In this document: in pieces, positions 21,462 through 46,000 of the stretch | Layout of the letters: every line of letters starts with the position of its first letter | How positions within the stretch are numbered: position 1 is the stretch's first letter | Origin: Amyelois transitella | Lineage: Eukaryota; Arthropoda; Insecta; Lepidoptera; Pyralidae | Length of the DNA: 64,000 nt | Reading direction: 5' to 3' | Assembly (NCBI RefSeq): GCF_032362555.1 | Contig: NC_083527.1 | Location: 868,001 to 932,000, forward strand | The notes under the pieces: generated by a model | What the model was told of the DNA's origin: nothing | Databases searched by the model: none | The model's input: only the letters and a program-made list of their open reading frames with translations | Position numbers and translations under genes: made by a program

Positions 21462-21541
21462 AGTCGCCGGCACCTCGTCGCTTCACTACGACGTCACTTG
21501 TTTTATCGTTGTTTTGTTTTGTTTTTGTTTCTGATAACAAG
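21462..21541 (+). promoter_or_regulatory. Candidate Fatp 5' UTR exon and start site, copy A
   Basis: An arthropod-type initiator TCAGT (21460-21464) has a DPE-like CGACG 28-32 nt downstream and a palindromic-like ACGACGTCAC. The exon would end at AACAAG|GTATGT (21541) and join the acceptor CCACATTTCAG before 22064, 29 nt upstream of the Fatp ATG. The same layout is at 36388-36467 in unit B. This is inference from motifs; no transcript data. Confidence 0.35.
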
Positions 21542-22092
21542 GTATGTTTCCACTTAAATAACTAAAAATTGTTTATTTTTGTAATATGCAGTGTTGTTTA
21601 GTTATTTTTTAAGGCCAGAAAGAAATTGTAATTTAACTAACAAGTGGCCATTTGTGTTATAGTAACTACAGTGCGATTTAAACATGTTTTGGAATAAATT
21701 TTGATTGGTCACTTACTTACCTAGTTATATTTTGTTTCCTATTGCTTTTAAATACATATTTTTATATTTGTCAGTGGTATATTACTTCATTATGATTGTA
21801 TTAAGTGGATTTTGCCGGAGGCGTTGCTTCCGTAAGATTTTTAGAAATACTTAATGTAAATGTTAACCGTGGCATAAGAATAGAGAACAAATAATATACC
21901 TATATGTTTGTTACCTTTTCACGCAAAAACTATCGAACAAAGTTTGTTTAATTTTTATAAGTAAGAAAGCATTTGTATCACCTACAAACATTACTACATT
22001 CACCGGTTCAGTCAAAAGCTTCTGACAAGTCCGCAACATATAAAAGACGTTTCCACATTTCAGTTGCACCAAATAATGCCAACATAACTAGG

Positions 22093-22307
22093 ATGGCAGA
22101 AAAACAAGGAGTTCGTTTTGAAGAAGCCGAGAAGAGGAAGACTTTGATATTAGGTGCCTTGGCATGTATATTTGGAGTGCTGATATGGTTGACCAGGAGT
22201 TCAGCCTTCGCAGTAGGTAGTCTAGCCCTGGTAGCGACGTACCTGATGACAGGGGATAGATACCAGTGGATTTTTATCTGGTTGAAGACTTACAAAAGGG
22301 ATTGGCT
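22093..22307 (+). CDS. Fatp first coding exon, distal duplicate (exon 1A)
   Basis: ATG at 22093 opens 71 codons plus two bases and ends TTGGCT|GTAAGTACC, the same donor and phase as exon 1B (37028-37242). It encodes [18 protein letters not shown], two hydrophobic segments and [18 protein letters not shown], the membrane-anchoring N-terminus of the fatty acid transport protein. The encoded residues appear identical to those of exon 1B. No exon 2 follows within unit A; the nearest compatible acceptor is Fatp exon 2 at 40932, past the whole of unit B. It is either a distal alternative first exon or a stranded relic. The acceptor-like CCACATTTCAG at 22053-22063 suggests an upstream UTR exon. Confidence 0.8.
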
Positions 22308-23227
22308 GTAAGTACCTAGTCATAATTCATGCTAATCAGACTTCAATACAAATTTTGTAAATGTGAGATTTGTACATGTTAGTTACTCTTCATAAAACAT
22401 GTGTTTTACATTTACATTAATGTGGGGTAACCGTATTGGGGTTTGGTTCAAATATATTGAAAACAGTCACAATGAAAAAAAAATACTTACTATCACAAAT
22501 GGAAGATTTTTAAAATTTTAATTAGGTACCTACCTATATTTTATTGGTAAAAACAGCCAAGCGTTGAATTTCTCGATAGAAAATTTCAAGATGTGTGCAA
22601 AAAACGGTAATAATTTTTGGACGCCTACCTTTGCCCGTGGCCGAAATAAGATAAAAAATGCAGATGTGTAATATCGAGCATTTTTTTAAAGATAGACTTT
22701 GAATTATTACTATCTTTGATGTTAGTGGACGTTACGCAATTTGGTAGAGCCCAAACAATTTTACTCCATTATTATTAATTTAAATAGGGATATGTTAACA
22801 TAAATATCACGCCTCTTTTCCGGACGGTAAGGCAAAAACCAAATCCTTTTTTTACGACGACTTTAACTTCGTTTAATTTTTTATGAATTTTGAGTGTAGT
22901 AATGATGTTTAATGTTTGAAATGCCTTGTCAAGGTTTATAAATACATGCCGCTTTGGTCCTCTTATCACTATATCATGAGCATCAATATAGGTACATAAA
23001 CAACCTTACAGCTACACTCCGAACAAAATGCTTATTTACAAACGGACTTTGTACCTCCTTCGGACACAATGGAGTATGGTATGCTCCTGTTGTGACACCC
23101 GCTGACCTTTCGGTTATGATAAACTCGTTTGCGTTTATGTGATCCTAGTCATCATCCTCTTGTCGTTAGTCTCAGCTGCGTGCTCTGGAGAGCCCAGGGT
23201 TCGCGTGTGACCACGATCCAGCCCCTA

Positions 23228-23346
23228 TAGCATGGCACGCGCGACGCCGTCTTTATCGCGCGAAAAACTGTTTCGCTTTTTATTGTGCCGTGAAACGGGA
23301 CAGCGATATTTTGCGCGATAAAAACGGCGTCGCGCTTTCCATGCTA
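23228..23346. mobile_element. Hairpin MITE, best-preserved copy in unit A
   Basis: Left TAGCATGGCACGCGCGACGC and TCTTTATCGCGCGAAAAACT are mirrored by TTTTGCGCGATAAAAACGGC and GTCGCGCTTTCCATGCTA, so nearly the whole element folds back on itself. The orthologue is at about 38166-38296. Confidence 0.7.
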
Positions 23347-23808
23347 TGGAGATGGATTGGATAATTATGGTTTTTACACAAAACGACTCCTGTTCCACCT
23401 CTGCAATCTACAGGGAAGTTTACCCTTGTGGGCTATGCCCGAATGAACCGAAATTCACTGTAGGAGCATCACAAAAGTGAACTAGGAAGGCTAGTGTGAA
23501 CTACGCCTTGTACTGACTCTGTTTTTATGGAATAATATTATTAACAGAAAGATGCATTAAGATAATTTGTATAGGTACTTAATCAAGTAACTGAATAATG
23601 AATACTTACTCAAGCAACTGAAATACTCAAGCAACCATCAGGAACCTCAAGGATCAGATTCCATTGAAAAGAGTCGTGACTATATATTTTGATCCGGAAA
23701 GTATAGGTTCATGTGCTTAATTGCTCATAACCTTAGATATTTATATACTTACGTTATTGCAGAGACAAAAATAGGCAAGGTGTAAATTTAAACTTTTTCC
23801 GTATATAT

Positions 23809-24450
23809 AATTGGAGGTTTTTCACCTCTCGACATCCTTAGCCACCCACGCCAATGTTGCCCCTTTGTTGCTTAGCATGGTGACTGATTTGAGGGGCCCA
23901 TTAAGTGAGTGGCGAGTCACCACCTGCCACATAATAGTCACGTATTCATGATTATGGCAGGTGACCGAACTTCTCCAGCAATAGCCCATTTTAAATCCAT
24001 CCAAACGTCAACTCCATAACCCATCATCCTTTTCCTTATTTTGTAATAGCTCCACCTCCTGCCGAGACTTGTTCATGGACATATTGTCTATTGATATGCC
24101 CGGGAACGGGTTTTGGCAGGAGAACAACATAACACTAACTTCTCCAAAGGGCCTCTACGTGTTGGATTTATATCCCCACGCAAGCCTCTCAAAAATCCGG
24201 GGTGTATAGACCCGTGAAATCTAAAAGGAGAAACATAATAATAATAATAAAGGCGTCGGGACGTGACGACCCCATCGCCCCCTGGGTCACCTTCCCAGTG
24301 CAATCAGTCTGTATGTATGTATGTATCCGTCAAACGCTGACCATGTGACAGGAACTTTGAAAGCAAGACGTGACGAATTGTATGTATAATTTTTACAATA
24401 TTAATTACTTTCCCTACATTTCTAGTTCTATTTTGTTTGTTTGTAAACTC
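23809..24450. repeat. Spacer between duplication units, likely repeat-derived
   Basis: This sequence has no match in the other unit. It starts GGAGGTTTTTCACCTC, contains a TAATAATAATAA run near 24240 and ends in TATGTATGTATGTATC (about 24310-24325), the same kind of tail as the window's LINEs, suggesting a LINE 3' end of another family. No gene seen. It marks the junction of the duplication. Confidence 0.5.
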
Positions 24451-24625
24451 TTTATTGCACATAAAAATAAATATAACAAATTACAGAACAGTTAATGGAC
24501 TTAGAAGAATATGTGCAATGGCGGACTTATCCCCAATGGGATTTCTTCCAGTCAACCAAAAGTTCATTGGATACATCACATTTCATCGTATTTAAAATGC
24601 GCCCATAATTCCAAATTCACTCCAA

Positions 24626-27600
24626 CTATGACATGTTAAACTGTTCAGTTTTTTTCGGCGGTGCGAACAGACTTTGGATTTCATCCACTGGTAACCCCTT
24701 GGTCTCTGGAATGTAGAAGAAGCTGAAGATCCCGGTGAGGACGCAGATGGCGGCGAAGAAGTGGAAGACGCTGCCAAGCCCGATGAGGTTGGTCAGAGGA
24801 TCGAAGATGACCAGGACGAAAAAGTTGCAGAGGCTCAGCCATTCGATTGAGATCATGTTGATGTAGCTCTTGACCTGGAAAATATTAAAAGTTATAGCGT
24901 TCAAAGGTCATGTCACACCTCGATACATACATACATAAAATCACGCCTCTTTTCCGGAGGGGAAGACAAAGACTACATCTTTCCACTTGCCACGATCTCT
25001 GCATACTTCCTTCGCTTCATCCACATTCATAACTCTCTTCATGCAAAGCTCGGCGGTTTCGGGTACTCTTGATCTGTCCCTTTACCAGTTAATTTTCTCC
25101 AATTATAAGACACTCATCTTACGTGTCGTCAATTAACGCTTTGAATCCTAGTTGGATTAAGATTAATACGAACCTCTGGTAAGAAAATCTCAGCGAGGAG
25201 CACAAAAGTCACCGTGCCCGCGCCGAAGGTGTAGAACATGGTGAAGAGGTATATGAAGAAGGGAGTCACCCAAGTGGGGCCCCACTCCAGCTGGATCTGA
25301 GTACCGCACAGCACGCAGCAGGCGCCGGCCGCCGCGGACGAGTAAATGATCAGAGGCTGGCAGGAGAATGAAAGACTTGAAAACACGGCATAGGAGAGAT
25401 TACATACATATGGTCACGTCTATATCCCTTGTGGGGAAGACAGAGCCAACAGTCTTGAAAAGACTGATAGGCCACGCTCAGCTGTTTGGCTTAATGATAG
25501 AATTGAGATTCAAATAGTGACAGTGCTATAGCTCATCGCCTAAAAAAAGAATCCCAAGTTTGTAAGCCTATCCCTTAGTCGCCTTTTACGACATCCATAG
25601 GAAAGAGATGGAGTGGTCCTATTCTTTTTTGTACCGGTGCCGGGACACGACAATAGGAGAGATTTAAGGCAAGATATATGCATTCAGGTTGGTAAGAGCG
25701 TTCGTGGTCGAATCGGTAGGGTTAAAATGCGGATGGCGCAAAAAGGGACAGGTTCCAATCCCACCTCGGTTATTTTTGAAGTTATGAACATTAGTTTCAA
25801 TACTAACCGATGCTCTTGCGGTGAGGGAAAACATTGTAATGAATTTGCAGATTCAGGCAACTGGATATGTGACCATGATCGATCCAATACGTGATAGATT
25901 CCCCTGCAAAGGTTGCGGAGGTCAAATGGGAGTCGCTTCGTGTAAAAACCTGACTCACTTTTTTATGCCACATTTTATATTTGAAAAAGAATCAATTTTC
26001 GATCAGTTTTACGAATATAAAAATCATATAAACAGACAATTACCCTTCTTCCGATGAGATCAGTCAGATACGCTGCTACGATACCTGTTGTCACGCTTAT
26101 GACTCCGAACAGGACGCTTGCTAATGTGGTCGACATTTCTGGAATCACCTGTAATTTGATAGTTTTTGAGTTAATTCTCTGCAATGTAATAAACGACGTT
26201 TTTAGCGCAATGTTTTCTTCCACGAAATGCCTCTGAATCAGTGGAACGGGGTTCGAGTCTCAGTAAAACCGTGAAAAATGGTCTTTTGTCGATTGGTTAG
26301 GTCTTTTTTGGAGGCTAGTTCAGTATTTATGAATAGGTCGCTAGACTGATAACATGGAAAAACACAAAGTGTCTGTCAACATGTTTACACTAATTGGCTT
26401 TTAAACTTGGTCTCATTTTAAGCGATGGGTTAGGAGAGAGAGATACATTACAGATAAGAGCCAACGGTTTCGCAAAAACTGAAAGGCCAGCTGAACGTGG
26501 CCTTTTAGTCTTATAAGACTGTTGACCCTGTCTACCCTGTAAGGGATATAGACGTGACTATATCGGTCTTGAAAAAATACCTGTTCGAACAGAGGTCCTG
26601 CGTATACTTGAATCACAACTATGCCTTGGAAGACGGACGCTGTCGTGAGAATGAGACAGATGTAGAAGGCGCGGCGGGTTGCCTTCGAACGCTCTGCAAT
26701 TTATAATGTCCTGGTAAGTTTGCATTGCTTTCATGATGGAATAGATGATCTGAAGACGGACGCTGTCATGAGAATGAGACAGATGTAGAAGGCGCGGCGG
26801 GTTGCCTTCGAACGCTCTGCAATTTATAATGTCCTGGTAAGTTTGCATTGCTTTCATGATGGAATAGATGATCTGAAGACGGACGCTGTCATGAGAATGA
26901 GACAGATGTAGAAGGCGCGGCGGGTTGCCTTCGAACGCTCTGCAATTTATAATGTCCTGGTAAGTTTGCATTGCTTTCATGATGGAATAGATGATCTGAA
27001 GACGGACGCTGTCATGAGAATGAGACAGATGTAGAAGGCGCGGCGGGTTGCCTTCGAACGCTCTGCAATTTATAATGTCCTGGTAAGTTTGCATTGCTTT
27101 CATGATGGAATAGATGATCTGAAGACGGACGCTGTCATGAGAATGAGACAGATGTAGAAGGCGCGGCGGGTTGCCTTCGAACGCTCTGCAATTTATAATG
27201 TCCTGGTAAGTTTGCATTGCTTTCATGATGGAATAGATGATCTGAAGACGGACGCTGTCATGAGAATGAGACAGATGTAGAAGGCGCGGCGGGTTGCCTT
27301 CGAACGCTCTGCAATTTATAATGTCCTGGTAAGTTTGCATTGCTTTCATGATGGAATAGATGATCTGAAGACGGACGCTGTCATGAGAATGAGACAGATG
27401 TAGAAGGCGCGGCGGGTTGCCTTCGAACGCTCTGCAATTTATAATGTCCTGGTAAGTTTGCATTGCTTTCATGATGGAATAGATGATCTGAAGACGGACG
27501 CTGTCATGAGAATGAGACAGATGTAGAAGGCGCGGCGGGTTGCCTTCGAACGCTCTGCAATTTATAATGTCCTGGTAAGTTTGCATTGTTTTCATGATGG

Positions 27601-30600
27601 AATAGATGATCTGAAGACGGACGCTGTCGTGAGAATGAGACAGATGTAGAAGGCGCGGCGGGTTGCCTTCGAACGCTCTGCAGTTTATAATGTCCTGGTA
27701 AGTTTGCATTGTTTATATGATGGAATAGATGATCTGAAGACGGACGCTGTCATGAGAATGAGACAGATGTAGAAGGCGCGGCGGGTTGCCTTCGAACGCT
27801 CTGCAATTTATAATGTCCTGGTAAGTTTGCATTGTTTTCATGATGGAATAGATGATCTGAAGACGGACGCTGTCATGAGAATGACACAAATGTAGAAGGC
27901 GCGGCGGGTTGCCTTCAAACGCTCTGCAATTTATAATGTCCTGGTAAGTTTGCATTGTTTTCATGATGGAATGGATGATCTTTCTTCATCCAAAATTACA
28001 AAATATACCTAGCCCGACGGGATTTTTTGGCGGGAACCCAGATGTCACATTGTTTGTACCTATGTTTTCCAAATGTGTGTACTTTTTATTTAATGACTAG
28101 ATAAAATTCTCCTTCGAAAGGGCTTGACCGATTCTCATGAAATTTTGTGAACATATTGAGTAGGTCTGAGAATCGGCCAACGTTTTTCATACACCTTATT
28201 GATAAGGGTTGTCCACCCATAATATTTTTTTTTAAATAGGAAATACTTAAAAATTAATTATATGGCAAAACAACGTTTGCCGGGACAGCTAGTATATATA
28301 ATGTATATATTATATACATATGTATGTCAGTATCATTAGTCGCCTTTTAAGACATCCATGGTAAAGAGATGGATTAGTCCTATTCATTTTTCTATTGGTG
28401 CCGGGAACCACACGGTTAACTTGAATGTATCAGAAGTACTTACTGAAGAATTCCCAAGGTGATATGTCAGGTTTCTTCATTGTTTTCAAGGTCTCTTCTT
28501 CGGGGCAATCACCTGGAAAGTTACAAAGAGTAAATTATTTCATTTGTTTAATTTAAATCTCTTAATTACTCTATAATTATGCCTAACAGCTGAACGTGGC
28601 TTAATTGTCAATCTTTCAAAACTGCTGGCTCTGTCTACCCCGTGAGGGATATAGACGTGATTATATGAATGAATGATTAATTTTACATACATGTAGGTAT
28701 AAAGTCACGTCTATATCCCTTCCGGGGTAGAGAGATTCAATAGTCTTGGGCACATTAAGGTTATTTAGCTGTATGGCTTTATGATTGAATTTAAATTCAA
28801 ATAATGGCAGGCTGCTAGCCCAACGCCTACAAGAAGAATACCAAGTTTATTAGCATTTCCCTTAGTTGCCATTTACGACATCCATGGGAAAGATTTGAGT
28901 TATTTTTTTTACTTTTATATGCTGTAAAAACATCTGCCTTCGTAGCATGGCACGCGCAACGCCGTCTTTATCGCGCGAACAACTATCGCTGTTTCACTTT
29001 TTTCATGACGTTAAACGAGACAGCTATAGTTTTCGTGTGGGGCTGGCGATAATGATAAAATACATGGTAACATTATATAAATCACACTTCTACCGGAAGG
29101 CTAGGCAAAAACTGTAGTTTCTAATTATCTTTAACTGTAACCACATTCACTAATCTTTTTAAGTATATAACCGTTATAAATTACGGTGTTTTATTACAAT
29201 CTTATGTTAGTTCGTTTGCTTAGGATCATATGTTTTTATTCCCTCAGTAAACAGAACATCTTTACTCTTTATAGTGTTTGATAACATGGGTAAATCCGAC
29301 AACAAAACACCTCGGTGTGTGACGTTATTTCCCGAAAAAGTTATCTTTATTTTAATGTTAGTAAGAATTACCAAGTTACAAGAGTTGGGAGGCGTGTGAG
29401 CTGTCGTGCGCGCTTACTAGGGTCACATAACTACGCAAGAGTGGAAAGGCCAGCAACTTACTGGTCGCCTATGACAGCAAGATCCCCTGCATCGACAGGC
29501 AGAGAGCATCATGGTGGAATACCTTGCGATCCTATGATGCCCTCATAATATCATGATGGGCGCACGGAGGGGGTTTAGTGAGTAAGCTGGCATATTATCG
29601 GTTTAAAGTTTAAAAAAGGTCCTATAAAGTTAGTTGAGGTCCGACCGAAGTCGCTTCGTGTCCAAACCTGAAAAGCCGCACCTCGAGTTTCTCTTCAGAG
29701 TTGGTCATAGCGGCAGGAGGAAAAAATGTTATGGTAAAATTCTGATGAGAATACAAACAATTTACGATATCGTTTCGAACACTTATCAAAATTACTTAAC
29801 ATAAAGTTCTCGTGGAATAAAGAAATCGTTTAATAGCAAAGTCTTTACCTAAGGTTAGTGAGCGAAAATCAGTTTATGTCAGAGAGAAGAAGCTATTGAA
29901 GGGTTTGGCGCATATTTCTTTTCACTATATATATAATATCCAAATATATTCTTTACGAATATATATTCGTAAAGAATATATTTGGTTACTGAGTGAAAAT
30001 GAGTGTGGGATTGACATACACAGATGGTCGAAACTAGTGATGGTCTAAAACTGTTTATTTGGCACATGTTCCTTGGGGAATGCTGGCGTGGTCAATCGCG
30101 CGAGAATAAATTCCAGAAAATTATGGAAAACTTACTGTCTGGTCCGAAACTAAGGGCTCGTCGGATGTTGTCGATTTCATGCAACACTTCTTTGGAAGTC
30201 GGCGGCTCGCTTCGGTAGAAGGCGACTGAGTTGATAGCATCCTTAAAAAACCATAAATTAATTTAAAAATATATAATTTCTTTGAAAATCTTATACGTAA
30301 CTTATGGTAAATATCACGGATCATTAAAACATTATATCGACTTGATTAATTGATTTGGTTGTTCCACCATCTCTGGTGGAACAACCAAAAACTTTATCTG
30401 CTTTATCTTTCATTACAGTTTTAGAATATTTCAGCATAGATATTTATTATTTGGTACTCGTACAACCTTAATTTGATCATACTCATTGCTAGGGGTGACG
30501 AAAATTAGAATCAAGCAAAATTTGCGCTGAATTAAACTAAAGTACTAGGCAATTAGCAATAAGAAAGAGGTTTATGATTACTAATCAAGATAATGCCATT

Positions 30601-33141
30601 GCTAAAATTATCTTTTGATATTTACCCGCTAAATGCCAGATCAAGACATGATTCTAGACATCACTCTTACCAAGATTTTCAATATGTATCAACATACCTA
30701 AATTAAACTTTATACAATTTCGATATAAACAAAACAATTACCTTTTCCCGCCCAACTTTCATGAGATACACGGGAGATTCTCTCAGCCAAAATAGCAGGA
30801 GTACGCTCACGATTGCAACTACCAGGTAGACATAAGACATGGTGTAGTAATCCAGCAATCCCCCGAGAAGGTACGACAACAGCATGCCGGTCCCGCTGAA
30901 GATCACTGACCCTGAGGTCATTGCCCCTCGGATGGAGTCTTGGCAGAATTCGCTGACGAACACTGGAACTACCAGGTATCCAGCGCCGCTAAGGCCCGAG
31001 ATGAAGATGGCCGCTAAAACTAGTTCTACTTTTGAAGAGAAGGCTATTAGTGTCCAACAAATCTGGAATAAAATAAAATAGAATTAGAATCTGTATTGAT
31101 TGGGGGAGCATGCGTGGATTGGATGATGTATCAGTCTTTTTTTTTTCATTCATATAATCACATCTATATCCCTTACGGGGTAGACAGAGCTAACAGTCTT
31201 GGAAAGACTGATAGGCCATGTTCAGCTATTTGGTTTTAAGATAGAATTGAGATGTTTTTTGCAAAAATAGAATAAAGGCTTAAAGTTGTTTAAGTACTCC
31301 AGTCTTAAACAATTTCTTAGAAGATTGATGTAGAGAGAACAATATTCATTATCTATGCCAAAGGTTGCGGAGGTCAGATGGTAGGCGCTTCGTGTAAAAA
31401 CTTGACTCACTCAATCCAGGATCCAGGGTCAAAGGCATACCCCGGGCTCCTCTCCAGAGTGGTGAGGATGCTATAGCCAGGAGGAAGAAGAAGAACAATA
31501 TTCATGATTATCACTTAGACACACACACAAACTTATATATATGTATATTGTGATATTTGATATTTTGGTTGACAGGACAGACTAACTTCCTGGGACTTTA
31601 TCTTGAGTTGAACAGTTTCATGTACGAGTACATTACATAATAAATAAATACCTATATACGTTAGTTAGCCTCTAAGTAAGTTCGAAACTTGTGTAACGAG
31701 ATACTAACTCAATGATATTTTACAATAAATACTTATATAGATAAACATTGAAGACCCAGGCCAATCCGAGAAAGTTCGATTCTTGATCCCTGGCCGGGAT
31801 TCGAACCCGGAACCTCCAGTGTCACAGACAACCGAACTACCAGTGCGTCACAGAGGCCGTGAATTGTGCAATTCATATAAACAAATACTTACTAGGGATA
31901 GGCTTATAAACTAGGGATTCCTTTTTTCGGCGATGGGCTAGCAACCTGTCACTATTTGAATCTCAATTCTATCACTTAGCCAAATAGCTAAACGTGGCCA
32001 TTCAGTCTTTTCAAGACTGTTGGCTCTGTCTACCCCGCAAGGGATATAGACGTGACCATGTGTATGTATGTATGAAAATACTTACTACGCTCATAGAAGA
32101 CGACACTATCGCGCAATATTTCCTCCCCACTTTGTCCAAAAAGAAGCCGACTATAGGACAACTGATGAGGTTACTAATACTAGAAATACTGCCGAGTAAA
32201 GCCGCTTCTCCGTCAGTCATGGGCCTGTTGAGCACCGTGTCCTCCGATCTGAGCAGCATGAGTGATGAGGAAGGCCATGTGAACATCGCTCCCATGCTCA
32301 TGCTGAGGAAACATACTGAGGGAGACATTTATACGTGTATCAATATTCATTTTTTGCATTTACATGCATTCGATGAAAATGCTGCAGTGTAGTTTGTTCC
32401 GCCTCTTCTTCTACACATGCGCTTTGGAAGCTTCAATTAGATTTAATAGTAGTAGTTTTAATTAGATTTAAGTGATGTGACGTCAATAAGTGAGGGGTAG
32501 ACCGAGTCAACAGTCTTGAAAAGACTGAAAGGCCACGTTCAGCTGTTTGGCTTAATGATAGAATTGAGATTGAAGTAGTGACAGGTTGCTAGCCCATCGC
32601 CTAAAAGAAGAATCCCAAGTTTATAAGCATATCCCTTTGTCGCCTTTTACGACATCCATGGGAACGAGATGGAGTGGTCCTATTCTTTTTTTTATTGTTG
32701 CCGGGAACCACACGGCACTTGCTTTTGCAATTTCCAATTTCAATTTCAAATTGTTTTCCGGAATATAATATGTTATGTATCTGTGATAAGTAAGCTAGTA
32801 ATTTTTCGTACTCCATAGAGAAAATTTCGATTGAAAATCGAGGGACGCTTCAGAAAATAATGGAAAATGTAAAAAAAAAACACAGGCATCAATGAGGGCT
32901 TCAATGATGCCCAAAATAACTATTCCACGCGGACGGAGTCGCGGGCACAGCTATAATAACTATAATAATCTTAGTGAAAAAATAGGATGAAGTCTTTCTA
33001 AATTTAAAATCTTTTTTTTATTACGTGACACAAAACGTGCGTGATTCAACATTTAATTCAGAAAATAATCGTGCGAAAACAATATATTTAAAAATTCCTC
33101 TTACCTATAATAGAACCACACACTTGCATACGAATACCCAT
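24626..33141 (-). CDS. Sugar porter (MFS, Tret1-like), copy B
   Basis: Nine coding exons on the minus strand: 33105-33141, 32086-32315, 30742-31062, 30136-30241, 28444-28512, 26581-26693, 26044-26148, 25174-25356, 24626-24874. The sizes match gene A exon by exon (1413 nt, 470 aa). Motifs DKVGRK, RESPVYLM, DLIGRR and PETKG are kept, and no stop or frameshift was seen, so the coding sequence is intact. Exon 6 is preceded on the transcribed strand by ten extra copies of its own acceptor (26694-27981), which may disturb splicing. The exon 2 acceptor (TCTCCCTCAG) is better than that of gene A (TCTCCCGCAG). If Fatp is ever transcribed from exon 1A, this gene lies antisense within that intron. Substrate inferred only. 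Confidence 0.9.
25402..25647 (-). repeat. SINE with target-site duplication, unit B only
   Basis: It is flanked by ATAGGAGAGATT on both sides (about 25390-25401 and 25648-25660), while unit A has a single copy, GCAAAGGAGAGATT. The TATG-type tail is at the left and the GGGACACG head at the right, on the minus strand. This proves the TGCCGTGTGG family is mobile and gives its length, about 246 bp. Confidence 0.85.
26629..27981 (-). repeat. 123-bp tandem array over exon 6 acceptor, 11 units (gene B)
   Basis: Unit starts (GAAGACGGACGCTGTC) fall at 26629, 26752, 26875 and so on every 123 bp to 27859. On the minus strand each has the intron end TATAAATTGCAG followed by the first ~64 nt of exon 6. 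The units are almost identical; variants are ACG or ATG in one codon and a few single changes. Only the unit at 26629 joins the rest of exon 6. Because 123 is divisible by three, one shifted frame stays open for 41 residues per unit, but this frame is not the transporter frame. Confidence 0.95.
28012..28293 (+). repeat. Helitron-like repeat, orthologue in unit B
   Basis: Matches 8879-9163 and retains the fuller end GTTTGCCGGGACAGCTAGT. It is followed by a TATA-rich palindromic run. Confidence 0.5.
29940..29985. repeat. Perfect 46-bp palindrome, unit B only
   Basis: CCAAATATATTCTTTACGAA is followed directly by its exact inverse through the centre ATATAT. Unit A has a related but non-palindromic stretch near 10845-10905. 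It lies in intron 4 of sugar porter B. Confidence 0.85.
30354..30389. repeat. Hairpin with 15-bp perfect arms, unit B only
   Basis: TTTGGTTGTTCCACC, spacer ATCTCT, then the exact inverse. Unit A reads straight through with GTTTAAAAAAAACTTT at this place. It lies in intron 3 of sugar porter B. Confidence 0.8.
31647..31862 (-). repeat. tRNA-derived SINE, uninterrupted orthologue
   Basis: Same insertion as 12787-13148 in unit A but without the nested LINE tail. It has GGGATTCGAACCCGG (B box in inverse) and GTCACAGAGGCCG at the head end. Confidence 0.7.
32490..32719 (-). repeat. SINE, TGCCGTGTGG family
   Basis: Near full-length minus-strand copy, orthologous to 14190-14411. Confidence 0.7.
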
Positions 33142-34004
33142 TTTCACTACTTATATTTTAATTATAGTTATTCTTACTAACACAGTCTGAACCTCCGTGT
33201 ATCTCACAAAACTAAAAGATTTGTACACAAAGAAACTTTTAAATAATAAGGTATCATAAAGATGAAGAGTTTTTATTGAGAGGATTAGGAATCAAAATAA
33301 AATAACATACCTTTACAGTTTATAGCAGTTAACGAATATTCTAAAGTATATTCTATATTTTATTGTAAGTTGCACCACCCTACTAGAAAATGCAAAAGTT
33401 TGTAGGGACTAATGAATGTATGTTTGTAACTCTGTAAAGCAAAATCTAATAGACACGGATTTTGATGCAATTTATTACACTCGTAAAATATAGTTTAAGG
33501 AAATTTGAATTAGGAAGGGATTATTTGAAAGCCTAGCCTAGCCTACATAAAGTCATACATAAACCAATTCCCCGTTAATAGGCAGACTACACAATACACT
33601 TAATTAACTAACTACTTTTATTAAAAATGCTATTGATTGATTGAAATGTGGACTTCAGAGACTAGATCCCCATCACAGATCACATCTCTAGTCGCATTAA
33701 AGAAAGAGATAGAGTGGTCCTATTCTAAAATGCCTTAAACCACACGGCTTTTGTACTTAGTAGTTAAAAAGTCTTGCGTTGAAAATTAAAAAAAGTTTTT
33801 CCGTTTATTGATAAGAAATTCACTAATTCATACGTTATAATGTAGTTATTTCAAGATTTGTTGTTATCTTATCACAAATCAGTGTAAATGATATTATCTC
33901 ATTAAGATTCTGATTAGCACCGGGGTTTACCCAAACTGTAGTCAATTCCTTATTATAACTACAGTGTACATGAATATTTACTGTCTTATTTATAAATTAC
34001 ATAC

Positions 34005-34255
34005 ATACATATGATCACGTCTTTATCCCTAGCGGGGTAGACAGAGCCACCAGTCTTGAAAAGACTGATAGGCCACGCTCAGCTGTTTGGCTTAGTGATA
34101 GAATTGAGATTCAAATATTGACAGGTTGATAGCCCATCGCCTAAAAGAGGAATCCCAAGTTTATAAGCCTATCCCTTAGTCGCCTTTTACGACATCCGTG
34201 GGAAAGAGATGGAGTGGTCCTATTCTTTTTTGTAATGGTCCCGGTAACTACACGG
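34005..34255 (-). repeat. SINE, TGCCGTGTGG family, with tRNA-SINE tail beyond
   Basis: Full minus-strand copy; unit A keeps only its tail end (18905-19015), so A has suffered a deletion here. A tRNA-SINE tail piece lies at about 34307-34440 and a Lep1 end at about 34455-34483, both absent from A. Confidence 0.65.
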
Positions 34256-35742
34256 CACCATAAAAAAATAATTATTTATAAATTACTAGATAGCTTTTAC
34301 TCGCAGCTTCTTCTTCTTCTTTCTGCTTGCTTCAGTCTCCAGTTGCACCCTCACCTTTCTGGTAAGGAGCTTGGCGTATTCCTTTGACCTTAGATCCTGG
34401 ATTGGGTGTGTCAGGTTTTTACACAAAGCGACTCCCACCTGAACCCCTATCTATAACTATTCCACGCGGACGAAGTTGCGGGCACAGCTAATTAAGATAC
34501 ATAAGTGAATTTTCAAAAGATTGGTTCAGTAGATAGCGATCGCGTGAAGAGACATCAAACAAATAAACTTGCTTTCGCATTTATAATATTAGGTACTTGG
34601 TATTATGTACATAGGTAAATATTTCTTGTCTTATTTATAAAATTTCCTCAACGTGGCTACCAGCATACTTACCATCAAGCATTAATACCATAATACCGAA
34701 TTACCTCGAATCTCTCTCTCTCTCCAAAGTTTAAATTCGTCATTATCCTATAGAATCATAAAAGTTATTTATTAAAATATACTTAAATCGGAAGACTATG
34801 TAAGTATACAAAATTGTACAGATTTTTATCACTAGTTTGTTGTATATCATTAAGAGACGCCTGATGCTTTTATTTAGCAATGTTGTAATCATATAAAATT
34901 ATGAAGTTTCAAATTTACTGCAGGGGCGTCTTAAGTGCTTAGCATGAAAATATCAACCAATAACAACATATATACCATCACACTTATTCCCGACAAGGTA
35001 GGCAGAAACAACTTTTTTCCACTTGCGACGATCCCTGCATCAATCTTTTCGTACAGTTTAGGGTACTCTTGACCGGACATTTCAAGATGTCCCTGATTTG
35101 ATAAAGGTACCTACGTCTGCTTTTCCTAGTAAGGCCTGCCTTCAACGTTCAAATTTACAATTTCCGTTGTATATTTACCATATCTACTTTTCTATTCAAC
35201 TGCTTTCATTCACCCTCTCCACATAACTAAACATTTAAAAGCTTAATTTATATAAAACTAGCGACCCGCCCCGGCTTCGCACAGTTAGCATTTATACATA
35301 TAAACCTCCCTTTTGAATCACTTTATCTATTAAACTGCATCAAAATCTGTAGTTGTTGTAGTTCTAAAGATCTAAGCATACATACATAGGGGCGGACGCG
35401 GGAAGCGTCTTTGTTTATAATAGGTAGTGATTTGTCACAAAGAAAGACTAGACTTTTAGGAATAACAAAAGTTTCTACTATTTCTGGAAATTCCCACAGA
35501 ACCAAAGCCATGGTCAAAAGCGTAGTCTAAGTTTTTCTCCCCGTTAAATATGCACTTTAAATCAATTAGCATAATGTTTATTTCGCAATGCATTGAGTTG
35601 GAGTATTGTATATCTGGTGATGCGTAACTTAATATGCTTGAAGGAAATTGATGCAATGACCATAGTGATGGGACATCTCGTAAAATATTCTTTTTGTTAT
35701 ATAACTAAGAATTAATTTCACCACGCTCTTTTATGCAATTGG

Positions 35743-35966
35743 TGCCGTGTGGTTCCCGGCACCAATAGAAAAAAAGAATAGATCTATTATCTACTAAGGG
35801 ATAGGCTAATAAAGTTGGGATTCTTCTTTTAGGCGACGGGCTTGCAACCTGTTACTTTAAATCAATTCTATCAGTAAGCCAAACAGCTGATTGACAAACA
35901 GACAGACTGTTGGCTCTGCCTACTCCGCAAGGGATATAAACGTGACTATACGTATGTATGTATGTA
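35743..35966 (+). repeat. SINE, TGCCGTGTGG family
   Basis: Orthologue of 20817-21040, with almost no differences over its length. Confidence 0.7.
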
Positions 35967-36387
35967 CGCTCTTTTAGATAGTTTAACAGGCTGTTCGTTG
36001 GTCGTTTAAGTGAGTGAGTGTTCTATCGGGAGATAACTTTTTTATCAATGCGTTATACTTAATCTCTAATGGATACGTTAATTTATTTTAAAGAGCCATT
36101 AAGTGTTGCCTCTCTAATGTAGAATGTAACTAAGGCAGTTATCAAAAAATAATAAACAAACCTGTAAATATTTCCTTTGCAAATTGTTACAACATTTTTA
36201 GAGGTTTGGCTCCAAAAAAAGAATAGATAACACATATGCCTTATAAAGTTTCCTGAAAGGATTCCCAGAGCGTCACCATTTTGGTTTAACTTATGTCCCG
36301 TTATTTGTATTATAACGTTACCAGTCACGACTAATTCCATCACTAGGTGAGTCCACATTTTCATTCATAAAACAAGCTATCGAGGTC

Positions 36388-36467
36388 AGTCGCTGGCACC
36401 TCGTCGCTTCACTACGACGTCACTTGTTTTATCGTTGTTTTGTTTTGTTTTTGTTTCTGATAACAAG
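36388..36467 (+). promoter_or_regulatory. Candidate Fatp 5' UTR exon and start site, copy B
   Basis: Same TCAGT initiator, CGACG at +28 and AACAAG|GTATGT donor as in unit A (21462-21541). The acceptor before the coding exon is CCACATTTCAG, with the exon starting at 36999. Motif-based inference only. Confidence 0.35.
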
Positions 36468-37027
36468 GTATGTTTCCACTTAAATAACTAAAAATTGTTT
36501 ATTTTTGTAATATGCAGTGTTGTTTAGTTATTTTTTAAGGCCAGAAAGAAATTGTAATTTAACTAACAAGTGGCCATTTGTGTTATAGTAACTACAGTGC
36601 GATTTAAACATGTTTTGGAATAAATTTTGATTGGTCACTTACTTACCTAGTTATATTTTGTTTATTTTGTTTCCTATTGCTTTTAAATACATATTTTTAT
36701 TTTTGTCAGTGGTATTTTACTTCATTATGATTGTATTAAGTGGATTTTGCCGGAGGCGTTACTTCCGTAAGATTTTTAGAATTACTTAATGTAAATGTTA
36801 ACCGTGGCATAAGAATAGAGAACAAATAATATACCTATATGTTTGTTACCTTTTCACGCAAAAACTATCGAACAAAGTTTGTTTAATTTTTATAAGTAAG
36901 AAAGCATTTGTATCACCTACAAACATTACTACATTCACCGGTTCAGTCAAAAGCTTCTGACAAGTCCGCAACATATAAAAGACGTTTCCACATTTCAGTT
37001 GCACCAAATAATGCCAACATAACTAGG

Positions 37028-40000
37028 ATGGCAGAAAAACAAGGAGTTCGTTTTGAAGAAGCTGAGAAGAGGAAGACTTTGATACTAGGTGCCTTGGCAT
37101 GTATATTTGGAGTGCTGATATGGTTGACCAGGAGTTCAGCCTTCGCAGTAGGTAGTCTAGCCCTGGTAGCGACGTACCTGATGACAGGGGATAGATACCA
37201 GTGGATTTTTATCTGGTTGAAGACTTACAAAAGGGATTGGCTGTAAGTACCTAGTCATAATTCATGCTAATCAGACTTCAATACAAATTTTGTAAATGTG
37301 AGATTTGTAAATGTTAGTTACTCTTCATAAAACATGTGTTTTTCATTTACATTAATGTGAGGTAACCGTATTGGGGTTTGGTTCAAATATATTGGAAAAG
37401 GTCACAATGAAAAAAAAAATACTATCACAAATGGAAGATTTTTAAAATTTTAATTAGGTAATTTTTTTGATTTATACAGCCAAGCGTTGAATTTCTCGAT
37501 AGAAAACTTCAAGATGTGCAAAAAACGATAATAACTTTTGGACGCCTACCTTTGCCTGTATCCGAAATAAGATAAAAAACATCCAGACATGTAACATCGA
37601 GTATTTTCTTGTAAGATAGACTTTGAATTATTACAATCTTTGATGTCAGTGGACGTTACGCGATTTGGTAGAACCTAAACAATTTTACTCTATTCTTATT
37701 AATTTAAAGAGGGATATGTTAACATTAACATATATCACGCCTCTTTTCCGGATGGTAAGGCAGAGACCAAATTCTTTTTTACGACGACTTTGACTTCGTT
37801 TAATTTTTTTATGAATTTTGAGTGTAGTAATGATGTTTAATGTTTGAAATGCCTTGTCAAGGTTTATAAATATGTACATGCCGCCATGGTTCTCTTATCA
37901 CTATATCCTGAGTATCAATATAGGTACATAAGCAACCTTACAGCTACATTTCGAACAAAATGCTTATTTACAAACCGGACTTCGTACCTCCTTCGGACAC
38001 AATGGAGTATGATATGCTCCTGTTGTGACACCCGCTGACCTTTCGGTTATGATAAACTCATTTGCGTTTATGTGATCCTAGTCATCATCCTCCAGTCGTT
38101 AGTCTCAGGTGCGTGTTCATTTCTGGAGAGCCCAGGGTTCGCGTGTGACCACGATCCAGCCCCTATAGCATGGCACGCGCGACGCCGGCCGTCTTTATCG
38201 CGCGAAAAACTATCCCTGTTTCGCTTTTTATTATGCCGTGACACGGAACAGCGATAGTTTTTTTGCGCGATAAAAACGGCGTCGCGCTTTCTTTGATTGG
38301 ATAATTATAGTTTTTACACAAAACGACTCCCTTTCCACCACTGAAATCTACATGGGAAGTTAACCTATGCCCGAATGTGCAGGTTTTCTCAAGAGGTTTT
38401 CCTTCACTGTAGGAGCATCACAAGAGTGTACTAGGGAGACTAGTGTGAACTACGCCTTGTACTGACTCTTTTTTCTGGAATAATATTATTAATACTTATA
38501 TATTTACTTTAATGCAGAGACAAAAATAGGCAAGTTGTAAATTAAAACTTTTTCCGTATATAGGTATCTGTAATTTGAGCTTTGACTAAAAATACTTTTG
38601 TAATTTTTTTAAATATTAAGATGGAAAATTAAAAATAACAATGAGAAATAGCGACAGGTTGGTAATTAACATTTAGTTAAAATAATAAACTTCATACAAA
38701 AAACCCTATTGCATTGTATGTCAATTAGTCGTATTTAAATTTGATTGACAGTTTATGAAAATTTATTCCTATTCATATTATAACTGCGAAAGTTTGTGAG
38801 TATGTATGGATGTTTGTTACTCTTTCTTAAAAACTTCTGAACCGATTACGATGAAATTTGGTATGTAGGTAGCTGAAGACCCAGGTTTTTAGGTTTTCAT
38901 TTGGAACCCCCTAAAGGTATATATGATAAGAATCACCCTTTTTCAAAGTTAAAGTTTATTGTTAAGACAAAAATGCTATCTTCGATTCTTTTTATTTGGA
39001 AACCCGCCGAATTTGCCGTGTGGTTCCCGACACACGTCAATAAGACAACTCCATATCTTTCCCATTGGATTTTTATTTCGGTTCATATATGTGCTGGTAT
39101 GGTTATGATTAAACCATTTTGTACCTATCCCTGCAAACTTACATAACGAAATAAAGTGGTCAGTAAATAAAATCACCAGGACAGCAGAGGCCAAGGTCCA
39201 GTGTCCGTCAATTGTTACACCTTGTATGCAAGTACCTATATTGAGTTAGCGTGGACATCCGGCGCGAATTGAAGTCGCCTGTTCGGTTATGTCAACCTAG
39301 TACTCATACTGTCCAGATACAAGAATCTAGTTTGGGTTATTTAGTTAGTTGTTTTTTTTTGCCTTCTTCATCCATCGTCACGCACGGATATCAGATTTCT
39401 ATGTAAACCCTATGATTCCTTGCGGGATAGACAGTTTAGCTGTAGGTATGGCTTAACGATGGAATTAAGATTGAAATAAGTGTTAGGTTGCTACAAGAAA
39501 AATCCCAAGTTTATTATTATTATTATCTATCCCTACTTCGCTTTTTATTACATGCATTTCATGTGCCGTGTGGTTTTCGGCACAATAGAAAAGAACCATT
39601 CATACCACCATAGTTCTAGGCAAACGCAACAGCTCATAGCGGGCATGGCTAAACAAACTTGAACCATATCATGCGAACCTTTTGCAACTATTTACTTCTT
39701 TGGAAATAGATTTCTAGAAAAGACATAAAATACCTACTGACCTGCATGTTATAACAGTATTAGATAAAGATTTTTTTTCTTTCTTTTATTTTTTCTATCA
39801 GTAGGAGGGAGTAATGGACTTAACTGTAAAATTTCTAGTAATATTCCCCTAGTGTTGAACACCGGAAGACTCTAATAACACCAGGGTAACAGCAAAAAGT
39901 AAGAGGTATACGGCGATGGAGCCGCTTCCATTCCAATGATTGAATGATTGCCGTGCCCGTATAGTATCGTACGACCCATAGATATAAAGTGTGATAGAAG

Positions 40001-43000
40001 GTCAAATGGTCGCCTCTAATGTCACTCGAAAGATAACGTTTTAGTTTTTGTGTTACTAGGAAATTTACAGGCGGTTCTAGTTATTTATATGTGTAACAAA
40101 TCACGTCTATATTCCTTACGGCGTGGATAAAATCAACAGTCATAATACTTAAAGGCCACGTTAAGCTGGATTAGCCTTATGAAAGAACTTGGATTCAGAT
40201 AAGTACAGTGTCAAGATGCCGACTACCGAAGAATCCAAAGTAATTAAGCCTTTCCATTAATTAACAACCCTTTGTAAAACGAGCAGGCAATATCCTTAGT
40301 TAGATATGATTTTATACTTACGCGTTGTACGTGTATTATACTATTTATAAATAATACGGGAACGTATTTTAGGTACTTTTACATACATACATACATATAA
40401 TCACGTCTATATCCCTTGCGGGGTAGATAGAGCCAACACCTTTACTACCGTCCACAATACACAATAACAGAGTCAGTGTTTTTGACCGCGGCCGTATTAC
40501 GGTGAATATTAACTGACTTTGCAGAAAAAAGTGGCGTTTTTGTAGTCACTGGATTACACCTCATTCTGCAAAGTTGGTTTGATATCACCGTAATATTATT
40601 GTACCACTCAGTTTTTAGATAAAGATACTGATTGCAGCTAGATCTAATGACATGTGTTTATTTCGCGACTTTCACTCACCGCGAATTTAAGCCGGCATAA
40701 AAGACGTAAGGCGAGAATATGGGATACAGAGAAGTTTAGAAATATCTTTCAGACTAGGCTATATGAACGGATAAATAAAATAAAAAATTTAAAGACTAGG
40801 GTACAATAAAAAAAAACCCTTTACTGAGTTGCTTCAGTTTCTCTACCAATGAAAATATTTCAAAAATTCTTAATTAAACACTACTAAATGTGAAAGTGTG
40901 ACTTTCTTCATGTTTCTTTCAATTTTTTCAGCGGATTTCGCGTTCTTCTGAAGACAATCCTCAGGGTGTGGGTGTGGGAACGGAGAGGCACCACTGTAGT
41001 CACCAGATGGGCAGAAGTGGCGAGGAGGTGTCCGAACAAGAAAGCCTTTGTCATGGGCGACAGGTCCCTGACTTTTCAAGAGGTATGTTCACACCGTGGA
41101 TGCACGTGGTGGGACAGACTAACAAGTGAAAAAACTTTACATATGACTAGTTTAGACGATATAAGGGAACAGATGAACAGCCATACCAACATATATATAT
41201 TCAGTTCAAAATTATAACCTTCCTTTTTTGCTTCGCCGTAGTCAGGTACGTCCTATTCCACGCGGACGAAGTCGCGGGCACAGCTATATGTTATAATTTG
41301 TAAAAATCTGAACACACATTGCATGTTGAAAATAAAAAAGGTCCAAATTGTCTTTTATAAAGTAATGGCAATGCACTTTTGTAATCAGACATTCTTGATA
41401 AGAATATAATAACAGCACTGTTAAAGATAGTATTGTTTACTATAATGAAGATACTATTGAGAATGTTATCAGTTCATACGTATATTCATACATAAAATCA
41501 CGCCTTTTCCCGGAGGGGTAGGCAGAGACCACATATTTCTATTTGCCACGACCACTGCATGCTTCTTTCGCTTCATCCACATTTATTCTCTTCATGCAAG
41601 CTCGGCAGTTACGGGTACTCTTGACCTGACCTTTTGTCAGGACCTCCTCAGTATTACTAGCTTTTGCTCGAAATACGGTCTCCTGATTATAAACTATCTA
41701 GATACATGTAAATATAACCGTAAAAAAATAAGTTTATTTCTTTTATACTATGACACACACTATTTACAGTAATTATAATTAAGTGATTACTCAAAGAAAG
41801 TAAGACTATGTACTTATGAATACATTTTTCAGTGATTAAAAAAAACATAATTTTTGTTCCTGTTTACGGTAGGAACTTACACATACAAAATAGCTAGGGC
41901 AATTAGAAGACTAGATTGTGACAGGTTGCTAAGCTAACGGTACAATTATTGATTAGATAAAATTTAGAGTCAGCCCTATTAGGCACTACAATAAGTTCTT
42001 ATTGATGCCAAACTTATTGTAGTGAAGTGCATAAACTTGCTAGAGTTATGACGTAAAGCTAAGGCTATGAAAACGATTTTATTCACTAAAAACAAAGTTT
42101 CAAAAATCAAGAGGTCACATCGATTTACAGTGTTCCTTTCTGATAGAAATATTAAATAAAACAAAAGGGAGAAAATCTTAACCAAACATGTTTTCCTAGG
42201 GTGAAGAATTCAGCAACAGAATAGCCTGGTACTTCAGACGCCAAGGCTTCAAGAGTGGCGAGGTCATTGCCCTCTTCATGGAGACTCAACCAGAGTACGT
42301 GTTCGTGTGGCTCGGCCTTGCCAAGTTGAGGGTCACTACGGCGCTGGTGAACACCAACCTGAGAGGCGCTCAGCTGATACATTGCCTGAGAATTGCTGGA
42401 TGTAAAGCTGTTATATTTGGAGACGAGATGGTTGATGGTGAGCTCTTGTTTATTTATGTTCGCCTGGTACTTCGAACTGTACATAAGCGTATAAAACCTT
42501 AAGGAGGCACCATGAACTGACTTAGCAACAAGGTCCTAAAGCTTAGGAGACGAGATGGTCGACAGTGAGCTCTTTTTAATTCATGTTCTCCTAGTACTTC
42601 TGATGCCTGGTCCCAAGAGTGGTGAAGTTACCATGTCGAGTTGACGGGGTTCGTTTATAGAGAGAGGCTTTTACCATTTTTACCATAAAAATAAAAGGTC
42701 CACAAGACAAAACTGATATTATCGCAAACAAAGCGATCTTACTTTACAATGTAACCTCATAGAGCAAAATCAATATTGATTTACTAGGTAAATTCAATTG
42801 GACTTTACTTTCTAGCTATAAAAGAGATCCAAGAAGAAATCCGGGACATGCCTCTCTTCCAATTCAACTCCCCGGAACGTGGTGCCACATCAGTACTGCA
42901 GGATACTGCGGCTTTGGCCACGGAACTCAAGGAGGTGCCCCCGGAACCCTTCCAAGATGTAGTGCAGGCGAAACCAAGGGATACGCTGATGTATATTTAT

Positions 43001-46000
43001 ACTAGTGGCACGACCGGCTTTCCTAAAGCCGCTGTGATAACAAATATTAGGTTTGTAGAGCCATGGTTATTTGACAATCAGGAATTATGGATTTATATTT
43101 AGAAGTTAAGTGTAGTAATCTAAGTTGCTGGTTGGTTTACGGCACTTTAGAACAGAACCATCCCATCTTTCCCATGGATGTCGTAAAAGGCGACTAAGGG
43201 ACAGGCTTATAAATTACTTGGGATTCCGCTTGTAGGCAATGGTCTGGCAATCTGTCACTATTTGAATCCAATTCCATCATGAAGCTGAACATGCCCAAGT
43301 CTTTTCAAGACTGTTGGCTCTGTCTACCCTGGAAGGGATAAAGACGTGACTATGTATGTTCAAAATATTCTGATTCTATTCCATTAAGCTTATCGTAACT
43401 TCTGTATTCAGGTACTTGCTAATACCACTAGGAGTGCATAACTCAGCGCAGCTCACATCTTCCGACGTGATCTACGACCCGCTACCACTGCATCACACAG
43501 CTGGAGGGGTACTGGGCGCTGGGCAGGCGGTGATACTAGGCTGTACTGTGGTGCTGAGGAAGAAGTTCTCTGCGTCTAATTACTGGAGCGACGCGGCTAA
43601 GCATGGATGTACGGTAAGTTCATTTCATGTCATCTACAAAAACTACTAGGAGTTCATAAATCAGAGCAGCTAACGTCTAAGATCTGCTACATAACATCGT
43701 GTGTTCTGTGATCTGCTATCACTGCGTTGGAAAGGCGATGAGGTACATGAGATTATCGTGTTCTCATATCCCTATTATATGATCAGGGAAAAAGGACTAA
43801 CTACTTACTTCGTAATTCCCAGCACCGAAGGATACGACCGGTCAATTTGGTTCTAGTAGGACCTTTCTAGTGATCTAAGGCTTTCCTTATTATTACTAGG
43901 AATACATAACAATCATGATATAAGCCCGGTTAACTTAACCCGGTTTGGGTTAAGTTTTCTCCTGAATAGAGTAATGAAAATCAGGATTTACTGCATGTTC
44001 GTGTAATACCGGTGATGTGATCATGACCTCCTCCAGCGAAGACAAACAATGCCAAGGGAATGATAGTGAATACATATAAAGTCAAAGATGTCTGTTTAAA
44101 TTATATGACCTACTAAGCCTTCAAGCACTTTTAATTTAATCCTTTTCATTTCATTACCGCCGAACTTGCATGAAGTGAGTTATGAATGTGGATGAAGCGA
44201 AGGAAGTATGCAGAGATCGTGGCAAGTGGAAAGAGGTAGTCTCTGCCTACCCCTCCGGGAAACAGGCGTGATTTTATGTATGTATGTATGTACTTTTCAT
44301 TATGTGCAGGTAGCTCAATACATAGGCGAGATCTGTCGCTACCTGCTCGCAGTGCCACCTGGTCCCAACGACCGAGCTCACAAGGTTCGCGTCATGGCCG
44401 GCAACGGACTAAGGCCGCAGATTTGGGAGGAGTTCGTTAGGAGGTTCGGCATACAACGGGTGTTGGAGTTCTATGGAGCTACTGAAGGAAACAGTAATCT
44501 TGGTAAGTGTAGTAAACCATAATCGTGAAATGGCTTGCAGAAAATCTTTAGGTCCAGACAGTTCGGCAGTTTCTCTAACCATAAATTGTCGCAGAAGTCG
44601 TTGAATAGCTGGTCCCATAGAATGAGCCCAGAAAGTACATGTCATGGTTTGCAATGGACTAAGGCCGCAGATTTGCGAGGAGTTTGTTAGGCATACAACC
44701 AGTACTGGAGTTTCATAGCGCTGCTGAAGGAAACTGCAATGTAGGTAAGTAGACTTTGCCCCGAGGCGATTGACTAGGGCCGCAGAACTAAAAGAAAATT
44801 TCAAAGAGGTCGTGGTGTGGACCACAAAAATTTGAATAATTGGACATTATTTGGACATCAGGTGTTTTAGCATACCATAGATCTCCTGAATAAAACTGCA
44901 AAGGAAACTTTTATAGTATAAACTTTTAAAATACAATGTTTTAATTCTTTGATTCTAAATATTGGACCTAGAAAACAGTAGATTAAAATGTGTAATTTTT
45001 TTTCAGTTAATATGGACTCTAAAGTCGGTGCCATAGGATTCCTCAGTCGACTTGTGTCATCGATATACCCTTTAACTCTAGTCAAGTAAGTTCTTTTTTA
45101 AATTAAATGTGATAAAAGCATTTTCTGTAATATCATCTTGGATTATATTGATCTAAAATTGTTGACTATTTCAGATGTGATCAAATTACTGGCGAAATCC
45201 TAAGGGATAGTAACGGGAAGTGCATCAGCTGTGGACCTCATGAGCCAGGTAAGATTTAGAGACTTAAATATAAAACTATATATTGTTTAACTGAATTTGT
45301 ATTGATAGATTGATAGGCCAGATAGATAAATATAGGCAAAACAGCCCAATTACCCGACACTCTGAAGCCTGCTGAAGTGTTAGTAGGTAGGACAAGGAAA
45401 TATAATACAGTGTATGGAATGGACAATTTAACAAAAAAAATTACAATGACGGCTATGTACTGGTAGTCTCAACATTGGAATACCATTGTGGAGAAATCTA
45501 TACGCCACAAGTTACAAAAATAAAAAATAGAATCACGCGACGCTGTCAGTCATAAACAGCGAAAAACCTAAATCGCGCAAGCAAAGATTTCACGGATTGG
45601 AGCTATATATACAACCTCCGACACAATATCGTCGGAGCCGCGGTTCCCCAGGCATCACACCTAGCCTGGCGGAAGATCTTCCCTTTGGTGGCGGTCGAGC
45701 CGAATCATTGCTCCCGCTACACCATTAAAGATTGTCCAACGATCTACTGAAAGTTGTGGAAAGATGCTTAGTGGAGGTCGTTTCCACCCAAATTTTGGAG
45801 AAGTACAACGTTCAATGTATGATACGACTGACCAATTTTAATCAAATGTCATTAGAGACCTAGCAAAAGATAGCTGCAGATGAAGAGACTGTGAAGAACT
45901 TTTTACTTCAATTTGCAGGCGTACTCCTTGGCAAAATTGATCCTAAGAAGGCCATCCTGACATTCTCCGGGTACGCAGACAAGACCGCGTCGGAGAAGAA

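Follow-up and report, generated by a model that had tools for sequence, protein, structure and literature searches.

We analysed a window of 64,000 nt from contig NC_083527.1 of Amyelois transitella (positions 868,001 to 932,000, forward strand). A Fatp gene was modelled on the plus strand, in which exons 2-11 occupy 40932..47827 and the stop codon ends at 47827 (exons 2-6: 40932-41082, 42200-42437, 42816-43050, 43412-43613 and 44310-44502; exons 7-11: 45007-45085, 45175-45248, 45919-46114, 47020-47110 and 47516-47827). The first exon is present twice upstream, as exon 1A (22093..22307, plus strand) and exon 1B (37028..37242, plus strand), and joining either copy to exons 2-11 gives an identical predicted protein of 661 aa. 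Two Pfam domains were found in this product, AMP-binding (7.3e-53) and AMP-binding_C (8.6e-6), and its best PDB match was FATP2 (E = 3.5e-130, aligned from residue 87 onward). Both AMP-binding domains and a FATP as best match identify it as a FATP (SLC27-like) acyl-CoA synthetase. Exon 1 encodes residues 1-71 and part of codon 72. Because the FATP2 alignment starts at residue 87, exon 1 contributes only the N-terminal part that precedes the enzyme domain. An apparently decayed partial copy of Fatp exon 6 was also seen in the intron that follows that exon (44626-44718), which suggests an older internal exon duplication.

Exon 1A measures 215 bp from ATG to donor (71 codons plus 2 nt), and exon 1B, the copy that adjoins the remaining gene, makes an in-frame GT-AG join to exon 2. 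The two copies are identical at 213 of 215 bases and at all 71 of the 71 encoded residues. Both differences are synonymous and lie at 22128 (C in A, T in B) and 22150 (T in A, C in B), so that exon nt 36 and nt 58 read C..T in exon 1A and T..C in exon 1B. The ATG, the donor (GCT/GTAAGT) and the phase (2) are common to both exons. The copies match without exception over the last 157 exon nt, across the intron's first 67 nt and across the 245 nt upstream of the ATG. If exon 1A is left unspliced, its frame stops just past the exon, at an in-frame TAA inside the donor, and a 72-aa N-terminal peptide would result.

We searched the 327-Mb, 33-contig assembly with a 501-bp probe around exon 1 and obtained 2 strong matches, both in the window; the remaining 5 of the 7 matches were pieces of 35-61 bp. 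When the peptide of exons 1 and 2 was used as the query, exon 1 was found at two places and exon 2 at one, all three matches (3/3) being in the window. These counts refer to the best-scored candidates, and among the downstream exons the genome searches covered exon 2 alone. The gene thus has two near-identical tandem copies of exon 1 and a single downstream exon set, and each copy is compatible in frame and splice sites with exon 2.

Two sugar porter genes were modelled on the minus strand, porter A at 5046..15252 and porter B at 24626..33141, each with 8 predicted exons, 457 aa and no stops. The Pfam domain Sugar_tr was detected in both (8.6e-62 in A, 1.6e-59 in B) and covers profile positions 48-452 of 452, as expected of MFS sugar porters. 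The six middle exons are of equal length in the two genes; the join of exons 4 and 5 was modelled from splice sites alone, and an extra small exon is possible there. An ORF on the minus strand (21438-21157) was considered as a porter first exon and was dropped, a better phase-matched exon 1 being present at 15252-15216 in A and 33141-33105 in B. A 123-bp tandem array (8604-8849 in A, 26629-27981 in B) contains the acceptor of porter exon 5 and the beginning of that exon; it has 2 repeat units in porter A and 11 in porter B. In porter B, the acceptor and exon 5 start occur in nine exact copies, of which only the last reaches the exon 5 donor without a stop; correct splicing of porter B must therefore choose the copy nearest that donor.

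The divergence between the porters was then estimated. We counted 24 synonymous differences (of 326.5 sites) and 15 non-synonymous differences (Ks 0.077, Ka 0.0145, Ka/Ks about 0.19), which points to constraint after duplication, as judged from the coding sequences. Other porter-like matches were found on the same contig (at least 54 matches listed), and the best outside A and B was 53% identical; the split between A and B is thus much more recent than that from any other match listed. Further porter-like exons, more diverged and also on the minus strand, were seen downstream of Fatp at 55145-60892, of which 59158-59340 matched the porter query.

The limits of the duplicated units were taken from a collinear BLAST chain of 15 pieces and from the breakpoint sequences. 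The chain runs from 4876/24434 to 23807/38562, and the sequences diverge beyond 23807/38562. Unit A, the left copy (about 4876..23807), consists of porter A, the intergenic region, exon 1A and about 1.5 kb of intron 1; unit B, the right copy (about 24434..38562), consists of porter B, the intergenic region, exon 1B and about 1.3 kb of intron 1. The initial annotation had proposed that an incomplete tandem duplication of Fatp left two first exons with common ATG, length, donor and phase, that exon 1A could join exon 2 at 40932, and that a sugar porter lies antisense between the two exons and possibly suffers transcriptional interference. Our analysis supports this in part. Transcription of exon 1A, its splicing to exon 2 and interference with porter B are putative, but the structural arrangement is borne out: the chain comprises 11,685 aligned columns, both exons lie where they had been placed, the predicted join to exon 2 is in frame for either copy, and porter B (33141-24626, minus strand) is intact in the gene model. 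It is antisense to the putative intron between exon 1A and exon 2.

The junction between the units (23808..24433) is occupied over about 23822-24310 by a high-copy repeat, which has at least 42 matches in the genome including itself, the best 40 of 453 first-look candidates having been scored. No second copy of this repeat was found within the window, and we accordingly rejected recombination between copies of the junction repeat as a simple account of the duplication. Relatives were also sought in viral_contigs, where 12 pattern matches were obtained and 0 were confirmed. The simplest reading of the event is a porter duplication of which one edge fell inside Fatp.

Each unit also carries insertions of its own. 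A LINE-like insertion with a target-site duplication of about 12 bp is present in unit A only (15780..18521, plus strand). LINE-like reverse transcriptase ORFs were recognised by eye at 15767-18502 (911 aa, plus) and 50550-52463 (637 aa, minus); these elements share 96.6% identity across 1965 aligned columns, and only unit A contains the former. A short copy of the LINE's end with a target-site duplication (about 13636-14013) is present in A and absent from B. It sits about 38 bp before the acceptor of exon 2 in porter A and may affect splicing of that gene. Unit B has a short repeat of its own at about 25405-25644, again with a target-site duplication.

Two diverged copies side by side could also arise if unit A were a divergent second haplotype of unit B kept in the primary assembly; assemblies have been reported to suffer widely from duplication errors (PMC9516828). 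We regard such an artefact as hardly credible at this locus. The window contains no N, and the junction carries its own repeat. The unit-specific insertions with target-site duplications and the differing numbers of 123-bp repeats also argue against it, although two haplotypes could differ likewise. In butterflies, a four-fold diversity (pi4D) of 0.0044-0.0428 is reported for 38 species (PMC6672018). The porter Ks of 0.077 is higher than the highest of these surveyed values (24/326 against 4.28%, p = 0.008), which are genome averages that single loci can exceed. An uncollapsed haplotype is thus unlikely.

We next examined how divergence is distributed along the units. The profile was built solely from the aligned columns of the 15-piece chain, hence without unaligned or unit-specific stretches, and a column covered by two successive pieces entered it a single time. 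The best-scoring segment was a tract of low divergence at 20090..22374 in unit A, which covers exon 1A and about 2 kb upstream, and its counterpart with exon 1B at 35016..37309 in unit B. Only 14 of 2281 columns differ in this segment (0.6%), compared with 490 of 9405 (5.2%) outside the tract, where outside means beyond 20117-22400 (15/2280 inside those limits). The segment score was 77.4, while 2000 shuffles of sites gave a maximum of 17.3 and 2000 of 100-column blocks one of 37.7. The edges are sharp: mismatches per 100 columns reach 6-13 at 22400-22800, about 100 bp past the donor, and 4-10 at 19700-20100. One further window of 200 columns with low divergence was found at about 15629-18570 in A (1/200). 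The near-identity of the two exons is real and, as one block of the collinear chain, far beyond chance, but it is not specific to the exon, being part of a 2.28-kb tract.

This distinction decides how the exon may be interpreted. Compared with the rest of the units, exon 1 looks conserved (2/215 vs. 490/9405, p = 0.0015), but that comparison ignores the tract. Compared with the remaining tract, exon 1 is not less diverged (2/215 vs. 12/2066, p = 0.39), and we rejected the identity of exons 1A and 1B as evidence of purifying selection on exon 1A. Selection on the whole 2-kb upstream region was likewise rejected as the cause of the tract, because the tract outside exon 1 shows lower divergence than the coding sequence of the porters (12/2066 vs. 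39/1371, Fisher 1.3e-7) and includes dispersed repeats. A sharply bounded tract of low divergence within diverged duplicates, unexplained by coding constraint, is the pattern of interlocus gene conversion. For the same two reasons, the tract is best explained, as judged from the divergence profile, by recent gene conversion rather than by exon-directed selection.

For Heliconius, a mutation rate of 2.9e-9 per site per generation has been reported, with a 95% interval starting from 1.3e-9 (PMC4271535). Using the Heliconius rate, the duplication would date to about 9 million generations ago (5-21) and the exchange to about 1 million (0.6-2.4). The upper end of the 95% interval is reportedly 5.5e-9. 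There has been little time for decay since the homogenisation, and at the divergence of the tract the probability of zero non-synonymous changes in exon 1 is 0.36 without constraint. The intactness of exon 1A is thus no sign of its use, which the sequence comparison neither establishes nor excludes.

Exon 1A and its promoter may instead be a remnant that was carried along by an adaptive or neutral duplication of the porter, now silent or the source of a short unstable RNA, and intact only through recent conversion. Both duplicated porters look constrained and share their contig with further porter-like matches; exon 1 shows no conservation beyond that of the remaining tract; and the in-frame TAA within the exon 1A donor would agree with a short product. 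However, the 200 promoter-proximal columns and the donor are identical to those of the other copy, so that silence of exon 1A would need an effect of position or chromatin. We consider a silent remnant a reasonable possibility, although a somewhat doubtful one.

The signals around exon 1 were examined in both copies. The initial annotation had assigned the same candidate promoter to each, and this agrees with our alignment, in which 0 mismatches were found in the 200 aligned columns 21894-22093, the last of them being the A of the ATG. A candidate core promoter, TATAAAA, lies at 22039..22045 on the plus strand, 54 bp upstream of the ATG of exon 1A, with its copy in B at 36974. From the window's own plus-strand frequency, this motif is expected 0.023 times in 60 bp. 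About 20 bp beyond the TATA-like box is TCAGTT, which we take to resemble the arthropod initiator.

The same letters also belong to a putative acceptor, TTTCAG/TTGC, at 22064 (36999 in B, plus strand); it closely precedes exon 1, and its use would turn exon 1 into an internal exon. Its score of 8.4 is in the top 1.1% of 3835 AGs and lies inside the span of 2.7-14.8 seen for the 17 acceptors of the gene models; the site was scored in copy B, and 22064 was deduced from the identical sequence. A strong donor, TAG/GTGAGT, at 21420 (36346 in B, plus strand) scored 9.75, in the top 0.8% of 3560 GTs, and could end a 5' UTR exon. All splice scores are based on 17 donors and 17 acceptors from the gene models of this window, with the tested exon 1 donor included.

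If these sites were used, exon 1 would be internal, behind a 5' UTR exon (donor 21420/36346, acceptor 22064/36999), and transcripts from unit A would tend to splice exon 1A to exon 1B. We computed that this join shifts the frame and ends in DWLCTK*, which would leave an upstream reading frame before the ATG of exon 1B. Unit A would then serve as a 5' leader that damps translation and not as a second coding start. The ranks of both sites agree with such a leader, as does the frame shift. However, the letters of this site can also be read as an initiator (TCAGTT) that follows a TATA-like box at a distance of about 20 bp, in which case exon 1 would be a genuine first exon, and the splice model had few sites of this window to learn from. 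We therefore think a leader of this kind rather improbable. We favour the reading in which the upstream acceptor and donor are unused and exon 1A is putatively spliced to exon 2. In that case exon 1B would have no acceptor, and the exon 1A donor would naturally pair with exon 2, which lies 18.6 kb further on, beyond porter B. Against this join, the acceptor-like site 5' of exon 1B would be a nearer partner for exon 1A.

Taken together, the following account seems to us to have about an even chance of being right as a whole. A tandem duplication copied one segment that comprised a whole sugar porter gene along with the 5' end of Fatp, its right edge falling inside intron 1. Fatp therefore has two modules of promoter and exon 1 but a single set of exons 2-11. 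The divergence profile suggests that a non-reciprocal exchange, gene conversion most likely, afterwards overwrote about 2.3 kb and made the modules nearly identical again. Exon 1B, from its position, would be the ordinary start, and exon 1A a redundant alternative start. Transcription from the identical promoter of exon 1A would run through porter B, and the exon 1A donor would splice over 18.6 kb to the exon 2 acceptor to give the same 661-aa protein. Any effect of exon 1A would concern the place or amount of Fatp production and not the protein itself. Exon 1A is structurally usable as a second promoter and first exon, its use being putative.

A stronger form of this account can be imagined, in which concerted evolution actively preserves two interchangeable Fatp modules around the antisense porter, coupling genes for lipid uptake and sugar transport. 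Firing of exon 1A would then raise the Fatp dose in some tissues and repress porter B by read-through. We consider this version decidedly improbable.

The near-identity of the copies also affects how use of exon 1A can be detected. Because the last 157 exon nt and the 245 nt upstream are identical, short reads that join exon 2, split-read mapping and CAGE tags are all ambiguous. Reads over the exon 1-exon 2 junctions, which the initial annotation had put forward as a test, would mislead, since they map to both copies. Assignment to exon 1A or exon 1B requires molecules that contain exon nt 36 or 58.

The closest precedent is PEP1 of Arabis alpina, in which a partial tandem duplication is reported to have copied exon 1 together with parts of the promoter and intron 1 (PMC3527215). 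Two start sites were detected there by 5' RACE, and two overlapping full-length transcripts share exons 2-7; the predicted proteins are identical in one accession, and the copies are 6.3 kb apart (PMC3527215). As at Fatp, a tandem exon 1 with partial promoter and intron 1 precedes one downstream exon set. PEP1 differs in being a plant floral repressor gene, with a longest duplicated segment of about 2 kb and diverged upstream regions according to the same report. At Fatp, in contrast, an entire second gene is part of the unit, homogenisation extends over the upstream regions, and the use of exon 1A is putative. The available account of PEP1 describes no gene between the copies, whereas the Fatp span is 18.6 kb and contains a gene on the opposite strand.

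Clusters of multiple variable first exons, such as UGT1, GCNT2 and the protocadherins, have also been described (PMC1885805), and each first exon of UGT1 is reported to have its own promoter (PMC3325998). As proposed for Fatp, several first exons in these clusters join common downstream exons. However, the clusters diversify the protein, while Fatp has only two first exons, which encode the same residues (71/71) and not different protein segments.

The definition of partial (incomplete) gene duplicates is said to be that of Katju 2012. Such duplicates are treated as a defined class (PMC3449122), and they resemble Fatp in that the breakpoint lies inside an intron and the copy comprises no more than the 5' part of the gene. 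The cases presented there are separate derived genes, whereas the Fatp fragment is upstream of the intact gene and in line with it.

Among insects, Drosophila Fatp1 is presumably kin of the gene studied here. A nervous-system start site of Drosophila Fatp1 has been used for targeted activation (PMC10228280). As in our proposal, a fly FATP gene is thus driven from a tissue-specific start site, which makes a second start for Fatp plausible; the account available does not describe that start as arising from a duplicated coding exon. The Fatp locus would belong with the PEP1-like partial tandem duplications of a first exon, which are of a known kind. No account of a duplicated Fatp first exon in Lepidoptera was recognised, by title or opening of the abstract, among the papers that our searches listed, and one may exist.

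This locus provides an animal example, fairly recent by its divergence, in which a second complete promoter and first exon were gained through incomplete tandem duplication, while the neighbouring gene was fully duplicated and is apparently constrained. It also gives a warning that the near-identity of duplicated exons can stem from gene conversion and should not be taken as selection. If exon 1A is used, the locus would be a clean test of the retention of redundant promoters and of the fate of a gene caught antisense between two starts.
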